DNA from: an uncultured Gammaproteobacteria bacterium
GTDB lineage: Bacteria; Pseudomonadota; Gammaproteobacteria; DRLM01
DNA: 41,810 bases
Reading direction: 5' to 3'
Assembly: GCA_947259075.1 (NCBI GenBank)
Contig: CAMYKQ010000052.1
Location: forward strand, 1 to 41,810
Positions 3,901 through 28,947 of this stretch are shown piece after piece. Every line of letters begins with the position of its first letter. The stretch's first letter is position 1. Under the pieces are notes generated by a model. It was not told the origin of the DNA, did no database searches, and saw only the letters and a list, made by a program, of their open reading frames with translations. Both the position numbers and the translations under genes were made by a program.

Positions 3901-5024
3901 CCGAGGCCGTACGTCCGCAGGGAAAGGACCGCTCGCGCCGAATTCTTAGGATTAGCGACGTAGGCGAAAAGCATGGGAAGGTCGTCCCGGTCGTGAGCGT
4001 CGTCGACGACCAAGAGTTTTTCGCCTTGCCCGAGACTCTCTAGATGCTTCGTAGAAAGCTCCTCCGTAGCGGAAAGGACTTTGACTAGTGTTCCAGGCTT
4101 CGCGTCTTGGTAATCGGCGAGGGCTTGGTACAGTAAACGGGATTTCCCGGACCCACCGGAGCCGGTCAGCAGGGTGACGAGTCGATCCTTGTCGCGGATG
4201 CTGTCGAATAAGTTTTTGAGTTCCTCTCTCCGCCCCACCAGTTGCCACAGGTGGTTGAAGGCGCGCTCCTTGCGCAGGAACGCGGAGAAGAAGTCCTCGA
4301 CGGACATCCAAGGGCCGGCCTCGACTTCGCCGAGCAACGCGAGTCGCTGCCCGGGGAAAAAGATGTCCACCAAGCGAATTTGCTCCGACTTCGAGAGCTG
4401 GCGAATCCGTTTTGCGACGTCCTCTTTGTCCCACAGTTCCCAATCGGGATGGACGGCAATCGCGTCCCTCGCCTGCGGACTGGCGATTCTCGTGAGCAGC
4501 AGAACTTTCTTGTCGGCGTGACGGACGTGTGCTTTGACGGCCACTTCGACCTTCGCTGCGCCGAACTCCTTATGCCTCTTGCATTGATAGGTGCGTATCG
4601 TCCCATCTTGCATAACGGCCTCGATATCCAGGCCGTCCTGCTTGTGGCCGGTCCCGCCGAACCGGTGCACGTCGGCGGTCGGGTGGAGTGCGGAGATGAA
4701 GAAGTCGCAAAACCGTTCGAAACCTTCCGCGCTCAGGGAGTCGATTGGAAACGGTTGGTCGAAACTGACCGTCGTCGTTTGCGGATCCAGCCCACGCTCG
4801 CTCACGTTCACTAGATCCTCGGGGCTTACGGATAGCACGTGCGCGAGCCGAAGCATGTCCTTCGCCCTGGGGCGAGATGTGCCGGCCTCCCATCGGCTAA
4901 CTGTCTGCTGCCGGACGCCCATCGCAATGGCCAATTCTCTTTGCGTCTCAATTCCCGCTTGGATGCGGAATTGTTGGAGGCGATGGCCAAAGTCGGTCGC
5001 CCTAGCATCGTTAGTCGTACTCAT
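984..5024 (-). CDS. Xre HTH - PD-(D/E)XK nuclease - STAND-like NTPase - helical tail (Avs-like defence candidate)
   Basis: A single protein of 1346 residues from ATG 5024. Residues 12-70 form an Xre helix-turn-helix (MGVRQQTVSRWEAG). Residues 95-200 look like an Mrr-type nuclease: a Glu in the first helix (103), D130-G-L-D133-I, then Q147-C-K149. Residues about 255-600 hold a P-loop NTPase with Walker A GSGGSGKS (288-295) and Walker B LLVVDDAH (D341-D342). The remaining ~740 residues are helical and repeat-like without a recognised family. Nuclease-STAND-helical sensor is the order of Avs antiviral proteins, in which the tail binds a phage protein and the nuclease is the effector; the fused Xre domain is unusual and suggests self-regulation. 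A TTG at 5066 would add 14 residues encoded by the operator palindrome and is less likely. The function is inferred. Confidence 0.8.
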   Translation of the reverse strand: MSTTNDARATDFGHRLQQFRIQAGIETQRELAIAMGVRQQTVSRWEAGTSRPRAKDMLRLAHVLSVSPEDLVNVSERGLDPQTTTVSFDQPFPIDSLSAEGFERFCDFFISALHPTADVHRFGGTGHKQDGLDIEAVMQDGTIRTYQCKRHKEFGAAKVEVAVKAHVRHADKKVLLLTRIASPQARDAIAVHPDWELWDKEDVAKRIRQLSKSEQIRLVDIFFPGQRLALLGEVEAGPWMSVEDFFSAFLRKERAFNHLWQLVGRREELKNLFDSIRDKDRLVTLLTGSGGSGKSRLLYQALADYQDAKPGTLVKVLSATEELSTKHLESLGQGEKLLVVDDAHDRDDLPMLFAYVANPKNSARAVLSLRTYGLGRIRLQAAAVLLQPPYTFQIGLEPLSQKQSVELAAQVLKEYCGPESAAEAVSRYTLDCPLATVVAAQIVAKEKLHPELLSTEGAFRTTLLARFQQVIAGDLAQGKDREAILSILRVLALVQPFSPDDAGLLKLLEDAEGISVADSNRLVKTLVTGGVAFKRGLTYRLAPDLLADYIIEQNCVTENGASSGYAEKIFAASPQSLVEHVLLNLGKLDWRLSSGNTASSRLLDGLWQQLRPTGEYGDKHFKAMTSVAYYQPARALQFAEQRIAEGRIPKDLPELVKYAAYNFEHLQRACGCLWELGKSDERQLHQHPGHAIRILKELCAVEPNKPVEYNAEVVGFGLSLLDYPDSWNGAYTPYDFLSGILQTEGHTTSSNGRAFSFNPYFVRQEAVASLRKDVISAAIARLDSERLDVAILSARALSDALRYPMGLFGAAVPETDRERWTDEFVGTLETIKGKVLSSMLDPFVWLELLSSISWHAKFASGRTSYVANEIFALTPDSLEFRTIRAFVDGYGHLVEDSDFETRQKEWQATIRHTAAEIADTFQNPEAIVQFVALTLARVEETKLNRNASPHVLLYELLAGTNSLAQYVVEYALGKPKSAIARYVPMALPRIYSEDVASGRAFTSRILASGNPELRASLARCLGQVLGNSSLGEYEFDTLKGFLSSDDEHEVATAAGELRHVGALDAAKALELIGATNFCGSEHVADEVLSLFEFPGPIPPDLLDSRSVSVLLDKLFPIPVLEKYWIQKFLASTSVRYPVETLDFFKKRVAHAASTEDYAFRPCNFGPYVHEPLRFAESAAFEDLCKDVWSWMRGGDNDNHKFQYFASHLFGAVFSATDDRTLSFMRNKCSGDSLDISLIGEILREADHAFSLDNPTFVVGYLTAAKSHGSKCLESATSALYSAAVSGGRQGTPGEPFPRDVEALEKAKSILDSLPRFSPAYRLYDLIKQDAEKNIAESLKERELFEE

Positions 5025-5064
5025 ATCATGTGTGCAAAATATGTTGAACACATGATATGAGTAC
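5017..5064 (-). promoter_or_regulatory. 48-bp palindrome over the start of the HTH-nuclease-STAND gene
   Basis: GTACTCATATCATGTGT (5017-5033) and its exact reverse complement (5048-5064) flank a 14-bp centre that is itself mostly symmetric. The ATG at 5024 lies inside the left arm. On the minus strand TTGTAC and CATATT stand 17 bp apart, a weak sigma-70-like pair, and would place transcription near the ATG with little or no leader. The natural reading is an autoregulatory operator bound by the protein's own Xre domain; this is inference. Confidence 0.65.
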
Positions 5065-5312
5065 AAGAATGCTGAGTCAAATGCGGGCGCTTAAGGATTC
5101 CAAGTGTCTATGCCGCCTCAGTCTGCAATCAACTACATGGCCGACATTGCTAGAGTGGCAGGCCGACGACCGCTTCGGCCGAGAACCGGACCCTCGTGGC
5201 AAACCCCGTCACCGTCTCAAATGGGTCAGTGAAACAGCCCTAGTCCGCAGTTCGTAACCACCGTGTTCCGGCTGTAGATGATGATTCTTTTTCACCTCCA
5301 CATACTCCACCC

Positions 5313-9519: not shown

Positions 9520-12500
9520 TTATTCGTCATCATACGTCATCCCAAAAACCGTGTCGGTCAACCAGTGGCGGAATGACTCGTTATCCTGAAATTGCTTAAA
9601 GAGCTGCGCGTCGTCGGTGAACAGCGCGGTGATCACTCGCTTTAGCGCCTTATCATGTTCGATGCGGGCGTTTTGGCGATCGGAGTGTTTCTTGGCGTTT
9701 TGGTAGGCTTGATCAGCGGCGACTTTCGTGGGAATCTCACCCGTGATGCGCTGCTCCATCCGTTTCGGATCGGCGAACAGCCCGCCAAACTGCTCATTGA
9801 ATGCCTTGACGATGTTCGACAACTTGTCCATCTCTGGCTCAGGTTTGCGGCCACCTCCCGACGTTGGCACAGGTTCTATTTCGGCGTTGGCGTCAGGCAA
9901 TGAAATCGCCATTGTTGCCTTTTTCTCCGCGCGGTAGCTGTCCATGTCGATGGCGTCGAGAATGCCTTTGGCGAGGTCTTCTTCAATGGGTGCGGGCAGC
10001 TTTGAGATCAGGAAGTTAAGGAAGATGGAGAGCTTCTCCCAGTCCTGCACGCCATAGGGCAGGATGGTGGCGAGGAAGTCGTATGTGCGCGTGAAGGCCT
10101 TGGCCTTGCCCTTGAAATCCACTTGCCCGTCTTCGTCGAGGTCTGTTACATAGACCGCGACGCACGCATCGAGGATGGGGTCCAGCTTGTCGCGATCGGC
10201 GCCTGCGAGATACAAACCCACCAGTGCGGTAATCTGCTCAGGGGAATAAACCTGATATTGATCCAGCTCCGCCTTCAGCGTGTGGAGTTTGTTCGGGTCG
10301 GTCTCCTTGCTGAGAATAGTCGTGCGATAGTAATCCGCGAAGGATTTCTCGATGGTAGCGGTGTCGTTCTGGAAGTCGAGCACGAAGACATCGTGCTTCT
10401 TCGGGTGCGCCCGGTTCAAGCGGGAAAGCGTCTGCACCGCTTTAATGCCGGAGAGTGGTTTGTCCACATACATGGTGTGCAGCAGCGGTTCATCGTAACC
10501 GGTCTGGAACTTCTCGGCACAGATGAGGAAGCGATACGGGTCTTCTTGAATTTTGTCGGCGATGTCGTTGCTGGGAAACCCATTTAGTTTTGCTTCGCTG
10601 ACCTTATCGCCTTTGTATTCCGGCTCGCCTGAGAACGCGACGATGGGCTTGTAGGGGCTCTTGATTTCCGTAAGGTAGGCGTTGAACGCAAAGTAGTATT
10701 CAATCGCGCGCTGGATGCTGCCCGTTACGACCATCGCTCTGGCCTGGCCGCCAATCTTCCGTTGGCCCATCACCTGCTCAATGAAGTGGTCCACCATGAT
10801 TTCCGCCTTGTCGCGTATGGCCTTGCTGTGGCTTTCCACATACACGCGGAGCTTCTTGCGAGCTTTCTTCACATCATACTCTGGGTCGCCTTCGACGGTC
10901 TTGGCGAGGCGGTAGTAGCTCGCAACGGGCGTGTAGTGCTTCAGCACGTCAAGGATGAAGCCCTCCTGAATGGCTTGCTTCATCGTGTAGGCATGGAAGG
11001 GGCGATGCTTTACCTCGTCTCCCACTTGGTATGCAATCCCAAAAATCTCCAGAGTCTTATTCTTCGGTGTCGCGGTAAAGGCGAAGTAACTGGCATTGGT
11101 GAGGAGCTTGCGGCTCTCGATAATGCTGTTGATCTTATCCTCCGTGGCCTCCTCTTCCACTTCCTCGCCACGTTCGGAGAGCGCCATGTTCATCTTGGCG
11201 GCGGTGCGTCCGCCCTGGCTGGAGTGCGCCTCGTCGATGATGATGGCGAATTTCTTACCCCGATGGGTCTCGCCTATGCTGTCGAGCACGAAGGGAAAGG
11301 TCTGCACCGTGGAGATGATGAGCTTTTTCCCGTCCTTGAGGAACTTGGCGAGCTGCTCGGTCTTCGAGCTGCCCGCGCCCTCCTTCACCGCGCCGATAAT
11401 GTTGCCGACCTGGGCAAAGCCTTTAATCGTCTCCCGGATCTGCTTGTCGAGGAGGCGCCGGTCGGTGATGACGATGATGGAGTCAAACACGTCCGCCCCG
11501 TCCTGGCGCAGACCGATCAACTGATGCGCCAGCCAGGCGATGGAATTTGACTTGCCGCTGCCAGCGGAATGCTGGATGAGGTAGCGCTTGCCGGCGCCAA
11601 ACCAGGCCGCATCGGCGAGGAGTTTGCGCACCACGTCCAACTGATGATAGCGGGGAAAAATCTGTACCCGTTTTTTCTTGCCCGTCTTCTCGTTCTTCTC
11701 CTCCACGATCTGGGCATAGTTCTCCAGAATATCGGTGAGGCCGCCGGGCGTGAGAATGCGCCGCCACAGATAGTCCGTCATGATGCCATAAGGATTGGGC
11801 GGATTGCCCGCGCCCTGGTTCCAGCCCTGATTAAAAGGCAGAAACCACGAATCCTTGGCCATGCCCTTCGCACCCTTCAGCGCGGTACACATCCGCACCT
11901 CATGGTCATCCATCGCAAAATGCACCACGCAGCGGCCGAACAAGAACAGCGTCTCGCGCGGGTCGCGGTCGCGCTTGTATTGCTCCTCGGCATCCTCGGC
12001 GGTTTGTTTGGTCAGGCTGTTTTTCAGCTCGAAGGTCGCCACCGGCAGGCCGTTGATGAACAACGCCAGGTCGAGCGCCCGCTTCGTTTGCTCGCGGCTG
12101 TAGTGGAGTTGGCGGGTGATGCTGAACCGGTTCGCCGCATGACGGGCCACCGCCTTCTCGTTCTCCGGCGAGGGCGTCCCATATAACAAGTCCACGTGAT
12201 ATTTCTCGTGGCTGACGCCCTTTCGCAACACGTCGATGATACCCCGGCGGGTGATTTCTCCCTGCAGGCGCGCGAGGAACTTGCGGCGCGTCGGACCATC
12301 GGTGCGCAAATCCAATGCCGTAGCAACGTCTTCCTGCGTCGCTTCGAGGAAGGTGGCCAACTGCGCCAAATCCACCGCATATTCCCGCTCGTAATCTGCA
12401 TTCGTGCCCGCGACCCAGCCAAAGCTCGTCATGGCGTTCACGATCAAAGACTCCAGCCCCTCCTCTTTCACGTTCGTCACCGGCGGCTTGTCGGGTGAGG

Positions 12501-13131
12501 CGGGCCGGGCGGTTTCGATGCGCTTGATGCCCCCGTCCGGGCCGAGCGGGGAAAACTCGATGCCATACGCCGCCTTCGCTGCATGAGGGCTGCCGGGAGA
12601 GAGCGCGAACTCATCCAAGAAGGCGATGAGCCGCGGGTCTTGTGACTGGAAGCCAAAAATGACACGCTCTGCAGCGTCCTTCGGCATTTCTAGCCTGACC
12701 AGCGAACTGTTGCTCGGGGTAACGGCCACGACCTTTACTTCGGTGTAGGTGACACCCGCGTAGGCCGCGGTCATCATGGCGAGCCGCAGCCGTTCCTTTT
12801 CCGTCATCCGCTCCACGTCGCTGGCGAGGATGAAATCCACCATCGCTTTCTGGCCGGCGGTCATGGCCGGCAACCGATCCCGCTCCAGCGCGCATGGCTG
12901 CTCTTTGAATCGCCGCAGTTGCGACGCGGGCCATTTCTCCGCATGGGAGCGGGTATGACAGTTGGCACAGAGGACGACCAAGTTGGCGGGGCTGTGATCC
13001 TGCGTATCACTCCAGGGAATGATGTGGGCCTTCTCCAGCGACACCGGCTCGCAATCGCAGGCGCATCGGTAGCGACACTCGAACAACAGTTCGCGTTGGG
13101 TCTCGATGGGGATGGCGGGCCGCTTGCTCAT
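9520..13131 (-). CDS. hsdR: Type I restriction endonuclease R subunit with N-terminal HNH domain
   Basis: 1203 residues. Residues 17-65 are an HNH/zinc-finger nuclease (HIIPW at 36-40, N50, CANCH at 55-59, H63), not part of normal HsdR. After a ~130-residue unassigned region, HsdR proper starts near 222: a PD-(D/E)XK nuclease with D353 and E367-L-K369, then the superfamily 2 motor with Walker A SAGSGKS (521-527), DEAH (632-635), AFTATPK, and QTLSRLNRAHPKK late in the motor. It translocates DNA and cuts unmodified DNA in complex with HsdM and HsdS. The ATG overlaps the hsdS stop by 4 bp (ATGA). The frame is intact throughout. The extra HNH gives the protein two potential nuclease centres. Confidence 0.93.
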   Translation of the reverse strand: MSKRPAIPIETQRELLFECRYRCACDCEPVSLEKAHIIPWSDTQDHSPANLVVLCANCHTRSHAEKWPASQLRRFKEQPCALERDRLPAMTAGQKAMVDFILASDVERMTEKERLRLAMMTAAYAGVTYTEVKVVAVTPSNSSLVRLEMPKDAAERVIFGFQSQDPRLIAFLDEFALSPGSPHAAKAAYGIEFSPLGPDGGIKRIETARPASPDKPPVTNVKEEGLESLIVNAMTSFGWVAGTNADYEREYAVDLAQLATFLEATQEDVATALDLRTDGPTRRKFLARLQGEITRRGIIDVLRKGVSHEKYHVDLLYGTPSPENEKAVARHAANRFSITRQLHYSREQTKRALDLALFINGLPVATFELKNSLTKQTAEDAEEQYKRDRDPRETLFLFGRCVVHFAMDDHEVRMCTALKGAKGMAKDSWFLPFNQGWNQGAGNPPNPYGIMTDYLWRRILTPGGLTDILENYAQIVEEKNEKTGKKKRVQIFPRYHQLDVVRKLLADAAWFGAGKRYLIQHSAGSGKSNSIAWLAHQLIGLRQDGADVFDSIIVITDRRLLDKQIRETIKGFAQVGNIIGAVKEGAGSSKTEQLAKFLKDGKKLIISTVQTFPFVLDSIGETHRGKKFAIIIDEAHSSQGGRTAAKMNMALSERGEEVEEEATEDKINSIIESRKLLTNASYFAFTATPKNKTLEIFGIAYQVGDEVKHRPFHAYTMKQAIQEGFILDVLKHYTPVASYYRLAKTVEGDPEYDVKKARKKLRVYVESHSKAIRDKAEIMVDHFIEQVMGQRKIGGQARAMVVTGSIQRAIEYYFAFNAYLTEIKSPYKPIVAFSGEPEYKGDKVSEAKLNGFPSNDIADKIQEDPYRFLICAEKFQTGYDEPLLHTMYVDKPLSGIKAVQTLSRLNRAHPKKHDVFVLDFQNDTATIEKSFADYYRTTILSKETDPNKLHTLKAELDQYQVYSPEQITALVGLYLAGADRDKLDPILDACVAVYVTDLDEDGQVDFKGKAKAFTRTYDFLATILPYGVQDWEKLSIFLNFLISKLPAPIEEDLAKGILDAIDMDSYRAEKKATMAISLPDANAEIEPVPTSGGGRKPEPEMDKLSNIVKAFNEQFGGLFADPKRMEQRITGEIPTKVAADQAYQNAKKHSDRQNARIEHDKALKRVITALFTDDAQLFKQFQDNESFRHWLTDTVFGMTYDDE

Positions 13132-14543
13132 GGGCTGTCCTCGGTGTCGATGTCTTCCAGCGCCTCGTCGACGACGGGTTCGTCAAGCGTAGCAACGGGC
13201 AGGTCGGGCAGCTTGGCCGCCGCCGCGCGCACGTCCAGCTTGCCCGTTACGATGTCGGCGGTCAGTCGGGTGCGGTATTCCTGCATCAGCGCGATCTCTC
13301 GCTCGGTGCGGGCGATGGCGGTGTTGAACTGCGCTAACTCACGATCCAATCGAGAAGCAATGACGCTTGCTTCTGCGAGTGGAGGAATGGCAAATGTAAA
13401 ACTCTTCAGTTCGGAAAGTGGAAGGTTATTTGCCATTCCTTCTGCTCCGCTTATTGCCTGTTCTACTTGTTGCCTGTAGTAAATACTGTTCATCGCATAG
13501 ACCATGAAATCGGTATAAACGATTGGGCGGAAGACAGCTCGGAAGGTCTTGTCCGACAAGATGAGTTTATAATCGAGCGCTTTAACCTTGCCCACTGACC
13601 CAACGAGCCTTGGCGAGCCGCAAGCTCGCGATATAAGAACATCATCGACTTTCACTATGATGGCTGGGTCAATCTCAAAATCAGCAGAAAGCTGCTTATG
13701 TTCGAACTGCCGGAATGTGCCGTGATTAACGCAACCTGACTTGAGAACGCCCCATGTGTTACCGACTGCTAGGAAGCCTGTAGCCTGCGGACTGACCCCC
13801 TGTTCGATCCTGCTGACAATTGTTCGTAACCTTCGCACCTCCCAATGCGCCGGTATGTCACCGATCCAGGGGATGCCGGAGGGCTTGAGGGGGACGTCGG
13901 GGTTAAGGCCGCGGGTGACGGCACGGTGGATGATGGCCTGCTTCTGCTCGTTCAGCAGCCCAATCAGCTTGCGCTTGGCGCGGATGAAGCCATCAATCTT
14001 GCGGTTCGCGTGGTCCAGAAACCGCACGATGGCGGCTTGTTCGTCGGGGGGTGGGAGCGGCACGAACTGATTGCCAAACATCTCATAGCGGAAGTCAGTG
14101 GACCGTTCTCGAATCCCTTTTGCTAACGCGAGAATCCATTGAGCCCGCGACATCTCACGAACGGTGTGCGCGTAGTAACGAGCCACGACGCCGGGACGCG
14201 GTTGGCAGACGTTGTAAACGGGCGTGCCTTTCCCATCGCTGTCAGAAACGCCAATCGCCCCTGCGAACGCATCCATTCCATGAATGACCAAGTCGCCTTT
14301 GCGTATTCCTTGGTAGCCTGATTCGACCGTCGCCTCGGTGAAGCCCCGAAGACGCCGGTTCTTTCGCAGAGTTACCATGCCATCACGAAAGCAGGTAACT
14401 ACTTCGTCCTGCGGTCTCACAGGGCGGTCCATCTTTGTAAAGAGCCATTTCGCCCGCTCTGTTTGCCATTCCGATGGTAAAGAACGCGCCCACGGAATAT
14501 CAGACTCCTTGTACTCCGCATACGGCTTAAGCCCTTCAATCAC
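13128..14543 (-). CDS. hsdS: Type I restriction specificity subunit S
   Basis: 471 residues from GTG 14543, whose GTGA overlaps the stop of the upstream gene; a longer frame to 14711 would read into that gene and is rejected. Two target-recognition halves are seen, each starting with the HsdS pattern: IPWARSLPSEWQTERAKWLF near the start and IPWIGDIPAHWEVRRLRTI in the middle. Each is followed by a conserved helix: PPPDEQAAIVRFLDHANRKI, and later PPLAEASVIASRLDRELAQF. The protein sets the bipartite DNA target for both methylation and restriction. The two recognition halves differ strongly, as expected, since they read different half-sites. Confidence 0.93.
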   Translation of the reverse strand: MIEGLKPYAEYKESDIPWARSLPSEWQTERAKWLFTKMDRPVRPQDEVVTCFRDGMVTLRKNRRLRGFTEATVESGYQGIRKGDLVIHGMDAFAGAIGVSDSDGKGTPVYNVCQPRPGVVARYYAHTVREMSRAQWILALAKGIRERSTDFRYEMFGNQFVPLPPPDEQAAIVRFLDHANRKIDGFIRAKRKLIGLLNEQKQAIIHRAVTRGLNPDVPLKPSGIPWIGDIPAHWEVRRLRTIVSRIEQGVSPQATGFLAVGNTWGVLKSGCVNHGTFRQFEHKQLSADFEIDPAIIVKVDDVLISRACGSPRLVGSVGKVKALDYKLILSDKTFRAVFRPIVYTDFMVYAMNSIYYRQQVEQAISGAEGMANNLPLSELKSFTFAIPPLAEASVIASRLDRELAQFNTAIARTEREIALMQEYRTRLTADIVTGKLDVRAAAAKLPDLPVATLDEPVVDEALEDIDTEDSP

Positions 14544-16366
14544 GACTGGCCCCCTTTCAGCAGGTCTGCCGGATTCCAGATGCGCTCGGCGATCTGGCGG
14601 TAGAGCTGGCTGCGGGTTTCGAGGTCGGTTTTCTTGAACTCGGCCAACGGGGCGAAAGGCAGGCCGCTTTGTTCCTTGAAGCGAAGGAAGCCGGGGTTGT
14701 GCTGGTAGCACTGCGGGTGCAGGGAGCGGGCCAGCAGGTTCTGGGTGTTGTAGTGCGGCAGTTTGTCCGCATAGGTGAGGTCGCCGTAGCTGGCGTTGAA
14801 GCTCTTGGGTAACAGCAACAGCCCGCCGATGCGGTTGCGGTGTTCGGCGAAGTCGGCGGGATGGCTGAACTCGTCGCTGTGGCGTTGCGGGTGGTCGGCC
14901 CAGATGTGTTCCACCTCATAGCGGGCCTTGCCTTCGCTGATGTAGTCGAGATAGCGCGAGGGTTGGCCGGACTGTGTTTCCACATAGTCGGTGAGGCGAG
15001 CGAGGATGCGGTGGAGCGGATAGCGGTTTTGCTGGTGCATTCGCAGGCCGTCGTTGCTGGCGAAGGTCTCGCTTTCCTTGCCGAGAACGTCGTGCAATTT
15101 GTGCGCAAGGGCATCGGGGTCGAGGCCGCGAATGTCGCGCATGACGAGGAACATGGCGTATTGCAGGGTCGAATACGCGATGGAGCGGAAATTCCACAAG
15201 CGCCAGGTGAGCAGGATGTCGAGGTAGTGCGCCACCAGGCCGATCTTACGCACGACGACCGCCTCGCCGTCATCCGGCCGCAGCGGGGCGAGCAGGAGCA
15301 TGTATTGCAGGGTGAAGCCGTGCTGAGCGTTGTACAGCACATGTTCCAGGCCGGGCACGGGTTGCCGTGCGGCCTCGATGAGGCGCAGGTATTGGCGGCT
15401 GTAGAAGTCGAAGTCGCGGTCTATGAAGCGGTAGAAGTCGTCGCTCTGCTTAAGGCCGACCGTGTCGGCGACATCGCGTAGCCAGCGGTGGAACTCGGTG
15501 CCGATACGGTCGAAGTCTTCCGGTTTCGCGCCCTTCTTACGCTCGCGGATTTTGGTGGCGTGCTGGCTGCGTAGCCAGGCCTTGAAACAATCGGCTTCCA
15601 CCTCCTTGCCCGCGTCATTGAGTTCGCGGATACGGTCGCGCCAGCGGCTGTTGGCGGCGGTGCGTTTGCTCTCGTCGATGTTGGCGAGCAGGTAGCCCTT
15701 GAGCATGTCCGTGGGGCTGAGGGAGAGACCACGGTCGTTCATGGTTTCGAAGATGGTGTAGGCGTCGTCGTCAGAGTAGGCGGTGATCTCGATGAGGTGG
15801 ACGTTTTCCAGCAGCCAATCGATGAAGTAGGGCAGGGCCACCTCGCCCAGCTCCTCGGGGAAGCAAGTTTCGAGGTCGGCGTAACGCTGCACGAGGTTTT
15901 GCACCGACTCGGGACGGTCGGTCACGTCGAAGGGCTGGCCTTCGTAGAGCGCGTTCATGGCGGGGGTACGCTCTTCGACGTGGAGGTTGAAGGACTTTTG
16001 GCCGTAGCGCTCTGAGAAGATCAGCTCATCGACATTCACTTTATCGGCGTGGTCTTTTTGCAGGTTGCGTAGGAGGATGAGCAATAGCGTAAGGCTGGTG
16101 AGACGCTGCTGGCCGTCAACGATGTAGCCGATGCTGTCTTTCTTGCTGATGATGATGGAGCCGAGGAAATAGTGCGGGTAGTCGGCGACTTTGCCGCGCG
16201 GATGGGCGGGCTGGTATTCCTCCAGGAATTTGCCGCACAGGTCATCCATGAGTTCGTGGATCTGTTTCTCGTGCCACTTGTATTCGCGCTGATAATAATC
16301 AATGGAATATTTCACGCCCTTGAGCAGCTCCCGCACGGTCTTGGCTTTGCCGAGGATTTCTCTCAT
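14540..16366 (-). CDS. GmrSD/SspE-like nuclease (DUF262 + DUF1524) inside the type I operon
   Basis: 608 residues. The N-terminal DUF262 domain shows YYQREYKW (24-31), DGQQRLTSL (84-92) and FETMNDRGLSLSPTD (206-220). The C-terminal part has a DUF1524-type HNH core: EVEHIW (484-489), RNRIGGLLLLPKSFN (510-524). This is the fused GmrS-GmrD arrangement of type IV enzymes that cut glucosylated-hydroxymethylcytosine DNA, and of SspE and BrxU. DGQQR is the nucleotide-binding motif and HNH the nuclease. The gene sits between hsdM and hsdS with 4-bp overlaps at both ends, so it is co-translated with the type I enzyme. It may attack phages whose modified bases defeat HsdR, or act with the methylase; its substrate is unknown. 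Confidence 0.88.
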   Translation of the reverse strand: MREILGKAKTVRELLKGVKYSIDYYQREYKWHEKQIHELMDDLCGKFLEEYQPAHPRGKVADYPHYFLGSIIISKKDSIGYIVDGQQRLTSLTLLLILLRNLQKDHADKVNVDELIFSERYGQKSFNLHVEERTPAMNALYEGQPFDVTDRPESVQNLVQRYADLETCFPEELGEVALPYFIDWLLENVHLIEITAYSDDDAYTIFETMNDRGLSLSPTDMLKGYLLANIDESKRTAANSRWRDRIRELNDAGKEVEADCFKAWLRSQHATKIRERKKGAKPEDFDRIGTEFHRWLRDVADTVGLKQSDDFYRFIDRDFDFYSRQYLRLIEAARQPVPGLEHVLYNAQHGFTLQYMLLLAPLRPDDGEAVVVRKIGLVAHYLDILLTWRLWNFRSIAYSTLQYAMFLVMRDIRGLDPDALAHKLHDVLGKESETFASNDGLRMHQQNRYPLHRILARLTDYVETQSGQPSRYLDYISEGKARYEVEHIWADHPQRHSDEFSHPADFAEHRNRIGGLLLLPKSFNASYGDLTYADKLPHYNTQNLLARSLHPQCYQHNPGFLRFKEQSGLPFAPLAEFKKTDLETRSQLYRQIAERIWNPADLLKGGQS

Positions 16367-18693
16367 GGCTTGACCCCTGCTGTGATCTCGCTCAGCAGAC
16401 CTTCCGTTTCCTGCTCCAGCGCGAGGATGTCGGCGCTGATTTCGGCGAGGGTGCGCAGCTTTGGCGGCTTATAGAAATGGCGGGTGAAGCTGATCTCATA
16501 GCCGATCTTGGTGTCGGCCTCGACGATCCAGGCGTCGGGGGTATAGGGCAGCACCTCGCGGCGGATGAAGGCTTCGATGCCGCCCTCCTCCAACAGCGGG
16601 ATTTGCTCGTGGTCACGCAGCTCGCTGTCGGGTTCGTATTCGACGACGCAGAGCTTGCCGTCGATCTCGGCCTCGAAGTGGCCGCGCAGCGGATCGGGGT
16701 GGGCCTTGCCGGGCTTGTGGATTTTTTTGATGACGCGGGCTGCGTCTTCCACGCGCCAACTGACGGCATTGATAATGAGCTTCAGGTCGGCGGCACTGGG
16801 TTTCAGGCTGAGCTTCTTGAGTGAGGCTACAAGCTTTTCGAGAAAGACATTGTGGTCTTCAAAGAGGCCGTCGCCGAGCGTTTCGCGGAGCCGAGTAGCG
16901 ACAGCGATGAGCATGGCATCGCGCTTCCATGTGGCCTCGTTGAGGAGCTTCTTTTTCTTCCCTTCCGGTAGCGTTTTTTTGGCCGTGCCGCCATCGCCTT
17001 CCTCGTCATCCTCCTCGACATCGCTTTTGCCCCAGTTGTTGACGAGTTTCTCCAGTTCCTTACGAACGGCGGCCGGCTTGTCAAAAAGGTCGTCGCCGAG
17101 CTCCTCGTAAAGCGCGGTGCGGATGTCTTCATCGCCCGAGGCATAGCGCAGAGTCTCGACGCGCTGGCGGCTGAGTTGGCTGTGCAGCCGCAAGGGGCGC
17201 TCGACCTTGACCTTCCAGTAACCGAAGGCGGCGTTGGGGAAGATTTTCGACTGCTCGGTTTCCTTGAAGGCGAGGAAGGTGTCACAGATGCGCTGGATGT
17301 CCTCCGGCGCGAGCTCGCAGTTCTTTTTGCCCATGTTCTTGCGCAGGGGCCGGAACCATTGGGTGGCGTCGATGAGCTGTACCTTACCCCGGCGGGGTTT
17401 GGGCTTGCGGTTCGAGAGCACCCAGACGTAGGTGGCGATGCCGGTGTTGTAGAACATGTTGAGCGGCAGAGCGACGATGGCCTCCAGCCAGTCGCTTTCG
17501 ATGATCCAGCGGCGGATGTTGCTTTCACCCTGACCGGCATCGCCGGTGAACAGGGACGAGCCGTTGTGTACCTCGGCGATGCGGCTACCGAGCGGGGTGT
17601 CGTGTTTCATCTTGCTCAGCATATTGGCCAGAAAGAGCATTTGGCCGTCACTGGAGCGGGTGACGAGGGAGTACTCCGGGTCGTCCCCGTGCTGGATGAC
17701 GAAGCGCGGGTCTTTCAATTCTTTCTTGCCACCCATGCGTTCGAGGTCGCTCTTCCAACTCTTGCCGTAGGGTGGATTGGCGAGCATGAAGTCGAACTCG
17801 CGGGAACGGAAGGCGTCGTTGGCCAGTGTCGAATGTTCCGGGCCGCCGACGATGTTGTCCGCGGCATCGCCGTCGCCCTTGAGCAGGAGGTCGGCCTTGC
17901 AGATGGCGTAGGTCTCGGCGTTGATCTCCTGGCCGTAAAGATGCGTGGCGACCTGCTTGCCGTGATCTTTCGCAATCTGCTGCAAGGTTTCCTCCGCCAC
18001 GGTCAGCATGCCGCCGGTGCCACAGGCGCAGTCGTAAAGAAGATAGGTGCCAGACTCGATCTTTTCGGCCACCGGCAAGAACATGAGGTTGGCCATCAGC
18101 CGGACCGCATCGCGAGGCGTCCAGTGCTCGCCGGCCTCTTCGTTGTTCTCTTCGTTGAAGCGGCGCACCAGCTCCTCGAACAGCGTGCCCATCGAATGGT
18201 TATCGAGGGCGGGCAACTCGCCCATGGGCTGCGGGCTGAGGTTGATGTCTTTGTCCAGGAATCTTTCGATGAGCTGGCCGAGGGCGTCGGCCTTGGACAG
18301 ACGCGGGATCTGATGGCGGAACTCGAAGTTGGTGAGGATGTCCTGCACGTTCGGCGAAAAGCCGTCGAGGTAAGCCTCGAAGTCGTCCTTGAGTTTCTGT
18401 TGGGTGGCGCGGGACTTCAGATCGCGGAGCAGGAACGGCGAGGTGTTGTAGAAGGCTTGGCCGGCGGCGGCGCGGAGGGCATCGTCTTGGTTGGCGACCT
18501 GCTCGCGGTCGAGCGCGGCTTTCATTTCTAGGACTGCCTGTTTGGTCGGTTCGAGCACAGCATCGAGGCGACGCAGAACAGTCATAGGCAAGATGACGTC
18601 ACGGTATTTGCCACGCACATAGACATCGCGCAGGATGTCGTCGGCGATGTTCCAGATGAAGTTGGTGAGCCAATTAAGTTGAGCTTGATCCAT
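16363..18693 (-). CDS. hsdM: Type I restriction modification methylase M subunit
   Basis: 776 residues, longer than the ~530 of classical HsdM. An HsdM N-terminal helical domain (1-150) precedes the N6-adenine methylase with AdoMet motif DCACGTGGM (221-229) and catalytic ANPPYG (305-310). The ~280-residue C-terminal extension carries an acidic tract (DVEEDDEEGDGG) and ends in a helix ILALEQETEGLLSEI that may contact HsdS. It methylates adenine in the HsdS target. It is the first gene of the four-gene operon; an AT-rich promoter region lies upstream. Its ATGA stop overlaps the GmrSD-like gene. Confidence 0.93.
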   Translation of the reverse strand: MDQAQLNWLTNFIWNIADDILRDVYVRGKYRDVILPMTVLRRLDAVLEPTKQAVLEMKAALDREQVANQDDALRAAAGQAFYNTSPFLLRDLKSRATQQKLKDDFEAYLDGFSPNVQDILTNFEFRHQIPRLSKADALGQLIERFLDKDINLSPQPMGELPALDNHSMGTLFEELVRRFNEENNEEAGEHWTPRDAVRLMANLMFLPVAEKIESGTYLLYDCACGTGGMLTVAEETLQQIAKDHGKQVATHLYGQEINAETYAICKADLLLKGDGDAADNIVGGPEHSTLANDAFRSREFDFMLANPPYGKSWKSDLERMGGKKELKDPRFVIQHGDDPEYSLVTRSSDGQMLFLANMLSKMKHDTPLGSRIAEVHNGSSLFTGDAGQGESNIRRWIIESDWLEAIVALPLNMFYNTGIATYVWVLSNRKPKPRRGKVQLIDATQWFRPLRKNMGKKNCELAPEDIQRICDTFLAFKETEQSKIFPNAAFGYWKVKVERPLRLHSQLSRQRVETLRYASGDEDIRTALYEELGDDLFDKPAAVRKELEKLVNNWGKSDVEEDDEEGDGGTAKKTLPEGKKKKLLNEATWKRDAMLIAVATRLRETLGDGLFEDHNVFLEKLVASLKKLSLKPSAADLKLIINAVSWRVEDAARVIKKIHKPGKAHPDPLRGHFEAEIDGKLCVVEYEPDSELRDHEQIPLLEEGGIEAFIRREVLPYTPDAWIVEADTKIGYEISFTRHFYKPPKLRTLAEISADILALEQETEGLLSEITAGVKP

Positions 18694-20202: not shown

Positions 20203-21438
20203 TCAGCGCCGCTGCTGAATGGTGTCGCGATGGCCGTAAGGTTTCCACGCCGGGGCGATGACGTTGGGCATGCTGGAGCGGCCCAGAAGCCGCGCGGGGG
20301 CGAGCGCGAATTCGCCGTAGCGTTGATTGATGGCGTCCATCACTTGATTACACGCGGCACGGCGCGGGGCGCTGTCGCCGAACATATCGCCCTGCGCCAG
20401 GGCGGGACGCGGATCGAGCGCGGTGACTTGCACTTGATGCACGCCTTGCCCGCGCCAGTGTTGTTCCAGCATGTTGCGGCACAGCGCCAGTACAGGCGCG
20501 GCATCGTCCGTGGGATATTCGCTGCGGTAATGCCCGCCGAGCCACTCATCCGCACGCAGGCCGATGAAAAATGTCCGTGCGTGTAATTGGTGGCGGCGCA
20601 AACGCACGGCGACCTTGAAGGCCATGTGTTCGAGATAGGTGATGATCACTTCGTGGGAACGCGTATTGGGCGGCATGACCTTGCCATGGCCCACGCTCTT
20701 GGGCGCGGCCACCTGCGTTTGCACCGGCGCGGGATCGAGGCCTTGCGCCATGAGCCAGATGCGGCGGCCGATATCGCCCCAGCGCCGCGCCAATTCACTG
20801 ATGGGCAGCTTGGCCATGTCGCCGCAGCTGCGCACGCCGCGCGCGGCGAGGTAGCCGCCGATGCCGTGGCTGATGCCGCACAAGTCGGTGACGGGCACGT
20901 CACGCAAACGCGCCGCCGTCTCCCACGGCGGGATGACGGTGAGGCCGTCGGGCTTGCGGAGTTTGGCGGCGTATTTGGCGGTGGTCTTGTCGCCCGAGAC
21001 GCCCACCGAACACAGCAGGCCCGAGGCCTCGTACACCGTGCGTTTGATGCGGCGGGCGACCGTGTCGGGCGGCCCCCACAGCGACTGGCAGGCGGTGAGG
21101 TCGAGATATGCTTCGTCCACCGAGAACACTTCGACATCGGGCGTGATGGTGATGAGCGCGTCCATGATGGCGGTGGACACCGCGGCATAGCGCTCGGGGC
21201 GCGCGGCCACGGCAAGGAAGTGCGGACACAGGCGCCGCGCCTCTTTGACGCGCATGCCGGTGCGGATGCCGAAGGCGCGCGCCTCGTAGGAGCAGGTGAT
21301 GATGCAGGTGCCCTGCGCGCCGTTGGTGATGCCGATGGGGCGGCCTTGCAGCTCGGGCAGATCGCGTTGCTCGATGGCGGCGAAGAAGGCGTTCATGTCC
21401 ACCAAGGCGATGACGCGGGGCCAGTGCGGCGTGGTCAT
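20203..21438 (-). CDS. Y-family (DinB/UmuC-type) translesion DNA polymerase
   Basis: 411 residues. Catalytic acids are in place: ALVDMNAFFAAIEQRD (first Asp and the Phe steric-gate region) and SVDEAYLDL (Asp-Glu). SVGVSGDKTTAKYAAKLRKPDG matches the conserved finger/palm segment, and a little-finger domain follows. QGDMF near residue 350 resembles a beta-clamp-binding motif. The protein copies past DNA damage at the price of mutations. It is the second gene of the cassette, 7 bp after lexA, followed by the SRAP-like gene. Length and sequence fit UmuC/DinB-like polymerases carried by mobile elements; I cannot say whether it acts as Pol IV or Pol V, and no umuD-like partner other than the LexA-type protein is present. 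Confidence 0.92.
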   Translation of the reverse strand: MTTPHWPRVIALVDMNAFFAAIEQRDLPELQGRPIGITNGAQGTCIITCSYEARAFGIRTGMRVKEARRLCPHFLAVAARPERYAAVSTAIMDALITITPDVEVFSVDEAYLDLTACQSLWGPPDTVARRIKRTVYEASGLLCSVGVSGDKTTAKYAAKLRKPDGLTVIPPWETAARLRDVPVTDLCGISHGIGGYLAARGVRSCGDMAKLPISELARRWGDIGRRIWLMAQGLDPAPVQTQVAAPKSVGHGKVMPPNTRSHEVIITYLEHMAFKVAVRLRRHQLHARTFFIGLRADEWLGGHYRSEYPTDDAAPVLALCRNMLEQHWRGQGVHQVQVTALDPRPALAQGDMFGDSAPRRAACNQVMDAINQRYGEFALAPARLLGRSSMPNVIAPAWKPYGHRDTIQQRR

Positions 21439-25663: not shown

Positions 25664-25941
25664 GCGTCGAACAGATCCCGTTGCAACGGCGTGAAGCTCA
25701 CGTGCACGGCGCAGGTTTGTTGCAAGGTGAACATGTCCTTCACCTGCATGAGCAAGGCGTCGTTCATGCCTTCACTTTCCATCACCACCTGCAGCTTGCC
25801 TTCGTCGGTGGTGGTGATCTTGCGGATGCGCGCGGTCATGCCGTGCACGCCCACGGCGGGCAGGGACTCGGGCTCACCGGCGCGGACAAACACCGCGTCG
25901 CCGTCGCCGGGTTCACGTGGAACGGGAAATTGGGCATTCAT
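25660..25941 (-). CDS. Small protein with C-terminal beta-clamp-binding motif
   Basis: 93 residues, preceded by a strong ribosome site (AGGAGGTCAAC ATG). The first part (PGDGDAVFVRAGEPESLPAVGV) looks structured, the middle ITTTDEGKLQVVMESEGMNDALLMQVKDMF is sheet and helix, and the end is QRDLFDA. QRDLF closely fits the QxDLF sliding-clamp-binding pentapeptide, and its place at the very end is typical for clamp partners. It lies between the VRR-NUC gene and the TolC-like gene with ATGA overlaps. A role in DNA replication or repair is likely; the exact function is unknown. Confidence 0.6.
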   Translation of the reverse strand: MNAQFPVPREPGDGDAVFVRAGEPESLPAVGVHGMTARIRKITTTDEGKLQVVMESEGMNDALLMQVKDMFTLQQTCAVHVSFTPLQRDLFDA

Positions 25942-26402
25942 GTTGACCTCCTGACGCGGGGCAGTGAGTGAACGTGCGGGCGCGCCGCCCCGCTATGGCG
26001 CGCGTCACGGTGTAGGCTTAAGGATTCTTGCGGCGCCACGTCCGCGTCGCCCTGCAGATAGGCGACGATCAACGCGCGCGCCTCGCACCAGCCGCGGCAC
26101 ACTTCGGCGCGGTAGCCTTGCAGGCGCAGCGCGACGACCCAGCGGCGTTGTTCGCGCGTCGCCGTGCCGTCGAGTGCTTTGAGTTCGATGTACAAGCCGT
26201 GAAAGCCACCGCGCGCCACCGGCAGGCACAGATCGGGCACACCGCGCTTGACGCCCTCGGCCTTGAGCTTGCGCGCGACGCGAATGTCGCGGTGACCGCC
26301 GTTGGGAATGGCGTGCAGCAGATGCAGCGCGGGGTGACGCGCGCTGGCCATGGCGGCCCAACGGAACAGCGCGGCTTGTTCGGCATGCTCGTGGTGTTTC
26401 AT
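25938..26402 (-). CDS. VRR-NUC domain nuclease
   Basis: 154 residues. The VRR-NUC signature is clear: HAIPNGGHRDIRVARKLKAEGVKRGVPDLCLPVARGGFHGLYIELKALDG gives the Asn-Gly-Gly, the catalytic Asp of GVPDL, and the Glu-Leu-Lys of the PD-(D/E)XK core; it is followed by a helix and YRAEVCRGWCEA. Stand-alone VRR-NUC proteins of phages act as structure-specific nucleases in recombination or replication. A GGAGAG ribosome site precedes the ATG. It follows the loader-like gene by 25 bp and overlaps the clamp-motif gene by 4 bp. The ~30-residue C-terminal tail after EALIVAYLQGDAD-like sequence is low in structure. Confidence 0.88.
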   Translation of the reverse strand: MKHHEHAEQAALFRWAAMASARHPALHLLHAIPNGGHRDIRVARKLKAEGVKRGVPDLCLPVARGGFHGLYIELKALDGTATREQRRWVVALRLQGYRAEVCRGWCEARALIVAYLQGDADVAPQESLSLHRDARHSGAARPHVHSLPRVRRST

Positions 26403-26427: not shown

Positions 26428-26739
26428 TCAACGGCGCAATTGAGCCTTGAGTTTGTGCATCAAGCGCGCGATCTTCTCGCGCTCCGGGCGCGTGCCGGCG
26501 GGCAGCCGTGGCGCGGTCATCGCCTGCTGGCGCAGCACGTCGTGGTACACCTCTCGCAGGCGCGCCACGGTGGGAAAGCGCGGCTCACTGCTGACCGCCA
26601 GGGTGCAGGCGCGGCGAAAGGCGTCATCACGCAAGCTACCCAACTGGTCCCAGTACACCGCCGCGCGTTCCGGCGTGAGCTCCACGTCGAACGCCGCTGC
26701 CAGGTACGCCAGGCTGTGTTGAAACGTCGTCTTGTCCAT
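26428..26739 (-). CDS. Helicase-loader-like replication protein (G39P type)
   Basis: 103 residues. The layout LTPERAAVYWDQLGSLRDDAFRRACTLAVSSEPRFPTVARLREVY resembles the small phage helicase loader/inhibitor family of SPP1 G39P: an acidic helix with Tyr-Trp, a helix of alternating Ala and Arg, then FPTxAxLRE. The C-terminus is basic and flexible (REKIARLMHKLKAQLRR), as in G39P, where it binds the DnaB-type helicase. It starts 104 bp inside the O-like gene, after a GGAGAG site, and is followed by the VRR-NUC gene. Its neighbours support a helicase-loading role; the similarity is weak in sequence. Confidence 0.6.
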   Translation of the reverse strand: MDKTTFQHSLAYLAAAFDVELTPERAAVYWDQLGSLRDDAFRRACTLAVSSEPRFPTVARLREVYHDVLRQQAMTAPRLPAGTRPEREKIARLMHKLKAQLRR

Positions 26740-27778
26740 GACTCGACTCTCCGAACAGGGTTTGCAAGGCGTTCACCGTGCCGTGCATGCGGCGGTGCGT
26801 GGCCGACTGAAACGCATCGCCCTTGACAGGGAACAAACCCTTCCAGCCGTTGACGATGCTTTGCCCGAGGACCGCCTCCACCGCGTGCCCCGCCGTGCGC
26901 AAACGCGCCAGCTCGGTGAACGCCCGCCGCTGTGCGACCGCGGTCATCGGCGCCTTGATCGCGCGGCGGTGGTCCAGGAACTCGGACCACAAGGCGGCGG
27001 GTAACCACGGCGGCAATTCGGGTGGCGGCCCTTCTCGCGCGTGCGTGCGTGTACGCGCGCCCACGTGCGCGCGTTGGTTTGTTTTTAATATTTGATATAG
27101 TTTTAACTGCTTAGAACTACTGTTGTTTACAGCTGTAATTTGTTTAGCTGGAGTAGTTATGGGGGCGGGTGACGCCACCCGCCTTTTCTGAGGGAAAACA
27201 CCCGCCTTTTGCGCCGTGTGCAAGGAAAGGGCGGGTGATTCGCCCGCCTTTTCCCCGGCCATAAAGGCGGGTAAATCGCCCGCCTTTTCTACATTGGGTT
27301 GTGAAAAGGCGGTTAAACCACCCGCCTTTTCGATGGCTGAAAAGGTGGGTAACTCACCCGCCTTTTGTGCCGAAAGGGCGGGTAAAACACCCGCCTTTTC
27401 ACGTTCCAAAAAGGTGGGTGGATCGCCCGCCTTTTGTTGGTGATGGCCGGCTGCAGCACGCGACTTTTCTGGCGTCGTTAAGGCGGGCGAATCACCCGCC
27501 TTATCCGCGAACGGCCCGAGGCGGTAACGTGATGGTTTGCCCCGCCCCTGCCCGGCCAACACCCGCACCCAGCCACCCGTCTGCAATCGCCGCACACTGC
27601 GTTGCACATCGCGGCGGTCGATGCCGGTCAAGGTCACCAGCACGGCCAAGGGCGCCACGCACTCACCGCGCGCGTCGACGCAGGCGAACAACACCCCGAG
27701 TACGCGCAAATCACGCGCGCCGAGCCGCGCATCGGCGAAGACCGCCAGCGGCAGCGTGGCGAACGGCGCGGCGTTCAT
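26636..27778 (-). CDS. Phage O-like replication initiator with repeat-rich middle
   Basis: 380 residues. The N-terminal ~90 are a winged helix (LRVLGVLFACVDARGECVAP, LTGIDRRDVQRSVRRLQTGGWVRVL), as in phage lambda O-type initiators. Residues ~94-200 are an imperfect repeat, consensus EKAGDLPAF, encoded by palindromic DNA repeats. Residues ~205-245 are encoded by an AT-rich tract. A C-terminal domain (LPPWLPAALWSEFLDHRR to ILGQSIVNGWKGLFPVK-like sequence) resembles the helicase- or primosome-contact part of phage replication proteins. The last ~30 residues overlap the next gene and look like read-through past a lost stop. It should bind the origin within its own gene and recruit a helicase. ATGA overlap with the cro-like gene. 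Confidence 0.75.
   Translation of the reverse strand: MNAAPFATLPLAVFADARLGARDLRVLGVLFACVDARGECVAPLAVLVTLTGIDRRDVQRSVRRLQTGGWVRVLAGQGRGKPSRYRLGPFADKAGDSPALTTPEKSRAAAGHHQQKAGDPPTFLEREKAGVLPALSAQKAGELPTFSAIEKAGGLTAFSQPNVEKAGDLPAFMAGEKAGESPALSLHTAQKAGVFPQKRRVASPAPITTPAKQITAVNNSSSKQLKLYQILKTNQRAHVGARTRTHAREGPPPELPPWLPAALWSEFLDHRRAIKAPMTAVAQRRAFTELARLRTAGHAVEAVLGQSIVNGWKGLFPVKGDAFQSATHRRMHGTVNALQTLFGESSHGQDDVSTQPGVPGSGVRRGAHAGTRGGVLGPVG
27081..27150. other. AT-rich tract beside the repeat array, candidate unwinding element
   Basis: Within the GC-rich O-like gene this stretch is about 73% A+T by hand count (51 of 70). It directly adjoins the repeat array on the side of the C-terminal domain, as the AT-rich region does next to the lambda iterons. 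It encodes a Thr/Asn/Ser/Lys/Gln-rich linker with no need for such composition at protein level. Confidence 0.5.
27162..27503. repeat. Array of about nine palindromic repeats, candidate replication origin
   Basis: A ~26-bp inverted repeat recurs, with arms close to AAAGGCGGGT and ACCCGCCTTT and a 4-9 nt centre. Its conserved right arm cccgcctttt begins at 27178, 27201, 27243, 27279, 27321, 27357, 27390 and 27426, with a variant at 27495. The first two are partial or out of phase. From 27201 on, distances are 42, 36, 42, 36, 33, 36 and 69 bp, all multiples of 3, so the repeats keep the reading frame of the O-like gene. Iterons inside an initiator gene are the arrangement of the lambda origin. 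A palindromic insertion element that multiplied in frame is the other reading. Confidence 0.7.
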
Positions 27779-27975
27779 GCCGCCCGCTCCTGGTCGCCGT
27801 CCAGCAAGGCCGCGGGGCTCAGCCCCAGCGCCGCCGCAAAGCGCCGCAACCGCGCCACCGACAAGGCCCGCGTGCCGCGCTCGATGCGGCTCACCCCGCT
27901 CTGGTGCAACCCGACCCGCCTGGCCAGTTCCGCTTGTGAGATACCGACCCGCTTCCGTGCCTCCTTGATGTCCAT
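27775..27975 (-). CDS. Cro-like Xre regulator
   Basis: 66 residues, essentially one Xre helix-turn-helix: RVGISQAELARRVGLHQSGVSRIERGTRALSVARLRRFAAALGLSP. Length and place fit a Cro protein: it is the first gene of the leftward replication operon and is divergent from the CI-like gene across a 112-bp operator region. A strong GGGGGAGGGGG ribosome site precedes the ATG. It likely represses the CI-like gene or tunes its own operon. The stop overlaps the O-like start (ATGA). Confidence 0.8.
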   Translation of the reverse strand: MDIKEARKRVGISQAELARRVGLHQSGVSRIERGTRALSVARLRRFAAALGLSPAALLDGDQERAA

Positions 27976-27992
27976 CCCCCTCCCCCTATCAT

Positions 27993-28048
27993 GTCATTGA
28001 GTCATAGTTTATTGTCTTTTTGTCAATTTACAAGCCGTCAGCACGTCA
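27993..28048. promoter_or_regulatory. Three operator-like repeats between cro-like and CI-like genes
   Basis: Three copies of GTCW-N4-GTCA lie at 27993-28004, 28014-28025 and 28037-28048, spaced 21 and 23 bp start to start, close to two helical turns. The minus-strand TTGACA (28021-28026), a -35 for the leftward operon, lies in the middle site. On the plus side CATAAT (28076-28081) is a -10 for the CI-like gene, which would start transcription at its ATG (28088) without leader. This is a lambda-style tripartite switch by layout; binding is inferred. Confidence 0.55.
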
Positions 28049-28087
28049 TTCTCTGTACTTAAATTGCCAATGAGGCATAATGCGCAC

Positions 28088-28546
28088 ATGAATACCCTCG
28101 GCAACAAACTCCGCAGCGCACGGAAAGCGAAACACCTGTCGCAGATCGAACTCGCCCGCCTGGTCGACACCGACCCCTCGCACATCAGCCGCATCGAGAA
28201 AGGTGAACGCACGCCCACCCTCGAACTGGCCAAGGCCCTCGCCCTCGCCCTGGCGCCCCACCTCAGCGCCGAGGAACTGCTCGATCTGGGTGTGCGCGAA
28301 GCGCGGCCCGGCTACGGCGCCGACGACGCCCTGCGCCGCATCCTGACCGACTACACCGCCCCGCAGGGGCTGCGCGAACTCGCCAGTGACCACGACCTCA
28401 TCGCCGCGCTGCGCATCACCGCCGACGAATGGCGCGCGCTCACCACCTGCGCCCTGCCCGCAAACGTCAGCAAAGAAGGCTATGTGCAATTGCTGGTGAC
28501 CTTGCGCGCGATTACGCCGAAGACGCATGGCGTGACTGGAACGTAG
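28088..28546 (+). CDS. CI-like Xre repressor
   Basis: 152 residues from ATG 28088. The first 65 form an Xre helix-turn-helix (KAKHLSQIELARLVDTDPSHISRIEKGERTPTLELAKALALAL). The rest is helical (YGADDALRRILTDYTAPQGLRELASDHDLIAALRITADEWRALTT) and has no S24 Ser-Lys pair, so it is not a LexA/CI-type self-cleaving repressor. Derepression must then come from an antirepressor, a peptidase such as the ImmA-like protein of this element, or the Cro-like protein. The upstream ATG at 28064 would lie across the -10 box and is rejected. GC-rich like the neighbours; intact. Confidence 0.8.
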   Translation: MNTLGNKLRSARKAKHLSQIELARLVDTDPSHISRIEKGERTPTLELAKALALALAPHLSAEELLDLGVREARPGYGADDALRRILTDYTAPQGLRELASDHDLIAALRITADEWRALTTCALPANVSKEGYVQLLVTLRAITPKTHGVTGT

Positions 28547-28839: not shown

Positions 28840-28902
28840 AATTGCGCGGGGCCGGTGCGCCTAAGTGATTGACTTATACGGTCTCATAATGAGAAACTTG
28901 GA

Positions 28903-28947
28903 TTCGCAATGCAGAGGTCGGGAGTTCGATCCTCCTCCGCTCCACCA
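28903..28947 (+). other. Attachment site: 3' part of tRNA-Ala(CGC)
   Basis: The sequence reproduces a tRNA from the anticodon loop to CCA: loop TTCGCAA (28903-28909, anticodon CGC), stem strand TGCAG, a T arm GGGAG-TTCGATC-CTCCT, acceptor strand CCGCTCC with U70 as in tRNA-Ala, then A-CCA (28944-28947). The D arm, the 5' acceptor strand and a matching 5' anticodon stem are missing; the upstream bases do not fold into them. This is the duplicated core left by tRNA-directed integration; the full gene should be at the other end of the element. Confidence 0.75.

Follow-up and report, generated by a model that had tools for sequence, protein, structure and literature searches.

Previous studies showed that phage lambda carries nearly perfect 19-bp inverted-repeat iterons inside gene O, which are bound by O dimers and followed by a 40-bp A+T-rich region (PMC5043065). 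Stx phages have six iterons, and their O is 13 residues longer as a result (PMC7466680), which gives a direct precedent for the in-frame gain of iterons. Repeated initiator sites adjoining an AT-rich unwinding element are also found in the iteron plasmid origins (RepE, RK2 TrfA, R6K pi). The plasmid iterons are directional repeats and usually lie outside the rep gene. Moreover, they bind monomers (PMC5043065).

The DNA that we analyzed (the window, a contig of 41,810 bp from an uncultured gammaproteobacterium) contains an array of palindromic repeats and an adjoining AT-rich tract, both located inside an O-like initiator gene. We consider the array and the tract, with a probability of about 0.88, to be the lambda-type intragenic replication origin of an integrated element. 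The original prediction had inferred a replication origin from the array, and this inference is now supported by the O-like family of the gene, its domain order, the AT-rich tract and the arrays in relatives. An intragenic origin of the lambda type is itself already known, and what is new is the unusual copy number and spacing; the locus is where an element without a close database relative probably starts its replication. An iteron plasmid origin does not fit, since the repeats of the window are palindromic and inside the gene. The features of the locus are as follows.

26636..27778, minus strand: O-like replication initiator gene, 380 aa (HTH_36, phrog_678, AlphaFold2), with a winged HTH at aa 9-87, a linker at about aa 92-220 and a C-terminal domain at aa 252-331
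27161..27506, minus strand: array of ten palindromic repeats (candidate iterons) in the linker-coding DNA
27478..27504: iteron 1, an 11-5-11 palindrome
27442..27468: iteron 2, decayed (5/11 arm matches), still in register
27409..27435: iteron 3
27373..27399: iteron 4, plus-strand centre AAAAC as in lambda
27340..27366: iteron 5
27304..27330: iteron 6
27262..27288: iteron 7
27226..27252: iteron 8
27184..27210: iteron 9, right arm lost, left arm kept
27161..27187: iteron 10, longer centre, out of codon phase
27074..27165: AT-rich tract, candidate unwinding element, immediately adjoining the array on its C-terminal side
26428-26739: 103-aa ORF, overlaps the initiator gene at its 3' end
25938..26402, minus strand: VRR-NUC protein (phrog_824), downstream of the initiator in the same direction
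28064..28546, plus strand: divergent phage-type repressor (HTH_3), an element control gene beside the initiator

The gene had been called O-like, which is borne out by the match of residues 252-331 to phrog_678 ('replication initiation O-like', E 3.2e-23) together with the winged helix-turn-helix at the N-terminus. Residues 18-71 match HTH_36 (E 1.8e-5) with 24.9 bits (curated cut-off 25, missed by 0.1 bit), and the winged-helix order was also seen in the alignment with relatives. In the AlphaFold2 model, which was built from twenty aligned sequences, the winged helix-turn-helix (about residues 9-87) and a helical C-terminal domain (about residues 255-310) are confident, with pLDDT around 90 or above, and most residues from about 96 to 191 have pLDDT below 50, the remaining linker being little better; the linker is thus predicted to be disordered. 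Foldseek against viral predicted structures found phage HTH replication proteins, including one annotated as phage replication protein O. Against the PDB, Foldseek gave weak matches only, to winged-helix proteins including the plasmid initiators 4pt7 and 5kbj (weak E-values), and a phmmer search with the N-terminus found no matches there.

The array sits between the DNA-binding and C-terminal domains and starts about 270 bp inside the gene. Its unit is a palindrome with GC-rich half-sites (AAAAGGCGGGT) and arms and centre of 11-5-11 bp. Seven of the ten copies are good and three degraded; the 11-5-11 form, with 9-10/11 arm matches, is kept in copies 1 and 3-8. Read in gene direction, the spacings are 36, 33, 36, 33, 36, 42, 36, 42 and 23 bp. 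The right-arm distances given earlier from 27201 (42, 36, 42, 36, 33, 36, 69) were re-derived identically from the sequence, and the last of them is 36+33 and spans the decayed copy at 27442-27468. The palindromes described at 27162-27503 are real, and their number, put at about nine, has to be corrected to ten. Likewise, the in-frame EKAGDLPAF-like repeat holds for the first nine copies, which share codon phase 2 and encode the peptide [EQD]KAGxxPAF, and fails for the tenth, the only one out of phase. New with respect to the original prediction are the location of the gene on the minus strand, the tenth copy, and the AT-rich tract on the C-terminal side. From the pattern of spacings, the copies may form dimeric blocks of 69, 69, 78 and 78 bp, consistent with a 77-nt direct-repeat family. 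Helical phasing of the copies is absent (Rayleigh R 0.11, versus 0.74 for a 21, 21, 24 array).

The array is beyond chance. We counted 12 near-palindromes in the array region, versus a mean of 3.2 and a maximum of 7 in 200 synonymous-codon shuffles of the gene, and a mean of 1.0 and a maximum of 3 in 100 codon-order shuffles. Ten copies of a 14-mer were present (maximum 2 in 10 codon shuffles), and single-strand folding of the array gave z = -10.5. As the palindromes exceed those of the synonymous shuffles, the constraint acts on the DNA itself and not only on the EKAGDLPAF-like peptide. The strand opposite the array is also largely open (27228-27524 and 27301-27939, both plus strand) and encodes a similar peptide (tblastn self-match of 43% identity, one TGA), because the palindromes are codon-symmetric; these opposite-strand reading frames are probably spurious.

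We compared the locus with ori-lambda using the lambda record and its iteron positions. Both have imperfect inverted-repeat iterons in the initiator gene, a copy number varying by in-frame steps, an A-rich palindrome centre, and the same order of initiator domain, iterons, AT-rich tract and C-terminal domain. However, the A-rich centre of the window lies on the opposite strand relative to the gene, and the window has ten copies of a GC-rich 27-bp palindrome at 33-42 bp, whereas lambda has 19-bp iterons at 20-24 bp and lambda and Stx phages have 4-6 copies. Two further differences are the strict codon phase (nine of ten copies) and that no P-like gene was recognized. The gene has 63% GC, and the AT-rich tract within it falls to a GC of 0.28 at its lowest (85 bp). 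Only two spots of the window have a lower GC, at 18674 and 7327, and both are at gene boundaries. Of 35 array-bearing diverse relatives, 28 had a higher AT content in the 80 bp that follow the array than in the gene on average (Wilcoxon p = 5.7e-6); these 80 bp were also more AT-rich than the 80 bp preceding the array (p = 0.005).

Close relatives of the initiator were absent from the viral contigs, phages, plasmids and 144 related genomes searched, where only C-terminal-domain or weak N-terminal matches were obtained, and an N-terminal profile run over 369 genomes gave no closer one; its full-length relatives are distant. It had been proposed to align the repeats in sister elements; a survey of relatives revealed arrays at the same place, each with a lineage-specific sequence. 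We assembled a diverse, redundant set of 66 O-like genes (600 nt or longer) on the basis of similarity in the C-terminal part or to phrog_678, with the window gene and lambda among them, and 36 of these had a clustered intragenic array with three or more copies. Each lineage had its own repeat, often palindromic with an A-rich centre, such as GACACCAAAACGGTGTC and GGGGGACAAAAATGTCCCCC. A closely knit family of 75 distinct proteins with a common KLADNANDxGECWPSY helix-turn-helix (the KLADNAN family, L115-L194) carried 3-6 copies directly after the HTH domain in 73 members, mostly 21 or 24 bp apart. This family is similar to the window protein in the type of winged helix, in the array placed directly after it and in the mostly in-frame spacing, but differs in the lower copy number, the 21/24 bp spacing, an unrelated iteron sequence and low identity to the window protein. 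The spacings were multiples of three in 105 of 124 cases in the KLADNAN family and in 57 of 114 in the diverse set. Several relatives have copies in all three codon frames (for example L055, with a spacing of 23 bp five times), so that the DNA and not the peptide is conserved in them. The window array is extreme in this survey, with the highest copy number (10) and the widest regular spacing (33-42 bp versus the usual 21-24). Candidate origins buried in the initiator gene are thus common and recognizable from sequence alone.

Within the KLADNAN family, iteron consensus and recognition helix vary together, and by analogy the same may hold for the window protein. Over 44 distinct sequences of this family, we computed the co-variation between pairwise iteron similarity and residue identity. 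The helix (residues 48-62) gave a Mantel r of 0.75, versus 0.18 for residues 1-40, 0.15 for 41-47, 0.56 for 63-80 and 0.35 for the last 95 residues of the protein. When the helix and the four other protein regions were entered in a joint regression, its coefficient was the largest (0.64, reached in 0/2000 permutations). The strongest single columns (55, 69, 50, 52, 71, 64 and 53) fall in the recognition helix, in the wing and in the turn that connects the two. Linkage of neighboring sequence could add to the correlation, but the helix has more explanatory power than the stretch that separates it from the array. That the array follows the recognition helix argues that the encoded protein reads the repeats in that family, and by the same analogy the initiator of the window would bind its own repeats. 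Through this co-variation of helix and iteron, the DNA specificity of such initiators can be tested directly, and origins could be assigned in many unannotated phages. One genome (G568) has two O-like initiators, L108 and L110, with identical N-terminal starts and near-identical C-termini; they differ in their recognition helices and in their intragenic iterons, and the pair is a natural specificity swap.

Further, we propose how such an origin may work. The winged-helix N-terminal domain, probably as a dimer, would bind each 27-bp palindrome, and several bound copies would assemble into a nucleoprotein complex, whose strain on the neighboring AT-rich tract at 27074-27165 would open this tract, where the helicase would be loaded. 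The disordered linker would tolerate the repeats, so that the array could grow or shrink by in-frame steps. Opening of the tract, loading of the helicase and continued replication of the element are what we would expect if the locus works as in lambda. The genes following the initiator encode the 103-aa protein, VRR-NUC, a 205-aa protein and a 309-aa P-loop protein outside any assigned loader family, and no P-like or DnaC-like helicase loader was recognized among them. The 103-aa ORF, which has no family match in Pfam, PHROGs or NCBIfam, is by its position a candidate for the missing loader function. As there is no recognized loader and phage structural genes were not seen in the scanned parts of the contig, the element may be a remnant whose origin no longer works. 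More tentatively, and with considerable doubt, a ten-site, codon-phased, GC-rich array with non-helical spacing of 33-42 bp might form an initiation complex that differs from the compact O-some of lambda, and helix, wing and iteron might evolve across these phages as a swappable one-gene cassette, which would amount to a readable origin specificity code.

Other explanations of the array were weighed against a replication origin. The repeats might be an autoregulatory operator array through which the initiator represses its own transcription, the origin being elsewhere. Binding of the repeats by the encoded protein, probable by analogy, would suit this as well, but the array lies about 270 bp inside the gene, away from the promoter, and has an AT-rich tract next to it like ori-lambda, so we regard an operator as very unlikely. 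Bidirectional terminators, or an RNA structure controlling initiator expression, could also be formed by hairpins with short T runs; the strong single-strand folding and 8 terminator-like sites in 26600-28100 (2.1 expected) point in this direction. However, the hairpins are inside a coding gene, which would then be terminated ten times, the T runs are only 3-4 long, all Rfam matches in the array stayed below the gathering scores of their families, and relatives keep the array while its sequence changes along with the DNA-binding helix, which makes a function in RNA highly improbable.

The evidence on codon register bears on two more explanations. If the repeated peptide EKAGDLPAF had a function in the protein, such as that of a binding motif or flexible spacer, the palindrome in the DNA would be incidental; the register is indeed kept across nine copies, but the excess of palindromes over synonymous shuffles (12 versus at most 7), the predicted disorder of the linker, and the different codon frames of the copies in L013, L038, L055 and L091, where no single peptide is encoded, leave this explanation with hardly any weight. 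We considered least probable of all a spreading protein-coding palindromic nano-element that inserts in frame (RPE-like). The original prediction had offered an expanding nano-element as its alternative, which the palindromic copies and the single codon phase of nine of the ten would fit, and had named copies of the palindrome in many unrelated genes as evidence against an origin. In the 3.1-Mb genome, palindromes with at most one mismatch in the 16 specified bases numbered 7 in the array and one elsewhere, so that the palindrome is confined to the initiator gene apart from that single copy. Outside the window we found a single exact ACCCGCCTTTTC, an isolated arm that lacks its partner, and a search of viral and genome collections with three units (CCCGCCTTTT) returned unrelated-looking tandem arrays among the matches listed. 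Relatives hold arrays of unrelated sequence at the same place, and the in-frame spacing needs no nano-element, because multiples of three also prevail in the KLADNAN family (105/124).

The lambda-type origin would belong to an element that is probably integrated, with its right end near 28947, since a tRNA 3'-end-like fragment at 28916-28947 (TCGGGAGTTCGATCCTCCTCCGCTCCACCA), comprising T arm, acceptor and CCA without the 5' part, separates the repressor from host genes (tRNA-Arg, a PEP-CTERM protein, EngA, a BamB-like protein and HisS). This fragment looks like an attachment-site scar at the right end of the element. There was no second copy of it in the assembly, and the other end of the element is outside the sequence because the contig ends at both ends of the window. 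A tmRNA-like match at 28848-28947 was rejected as a tmRNA gene, an intact tmRNA gene being present on another contig. The region 9520-18693 is a defense cluster carried by the element, with type I restriction-modification genes HsdR, HsdS and HsdM and a GmrSD/HEC-06-like gene between HsdS and HsdM. At 984-5066, a 1360-aa protein that combines a Cro/C1-type HTH at the N-terminus with a STAND-type NTPase domain is possibly a defense or regulatory protein, and a Y-family DNA polymerase (UmuC/DinB-like) is encoded on the element at 20203-21438.
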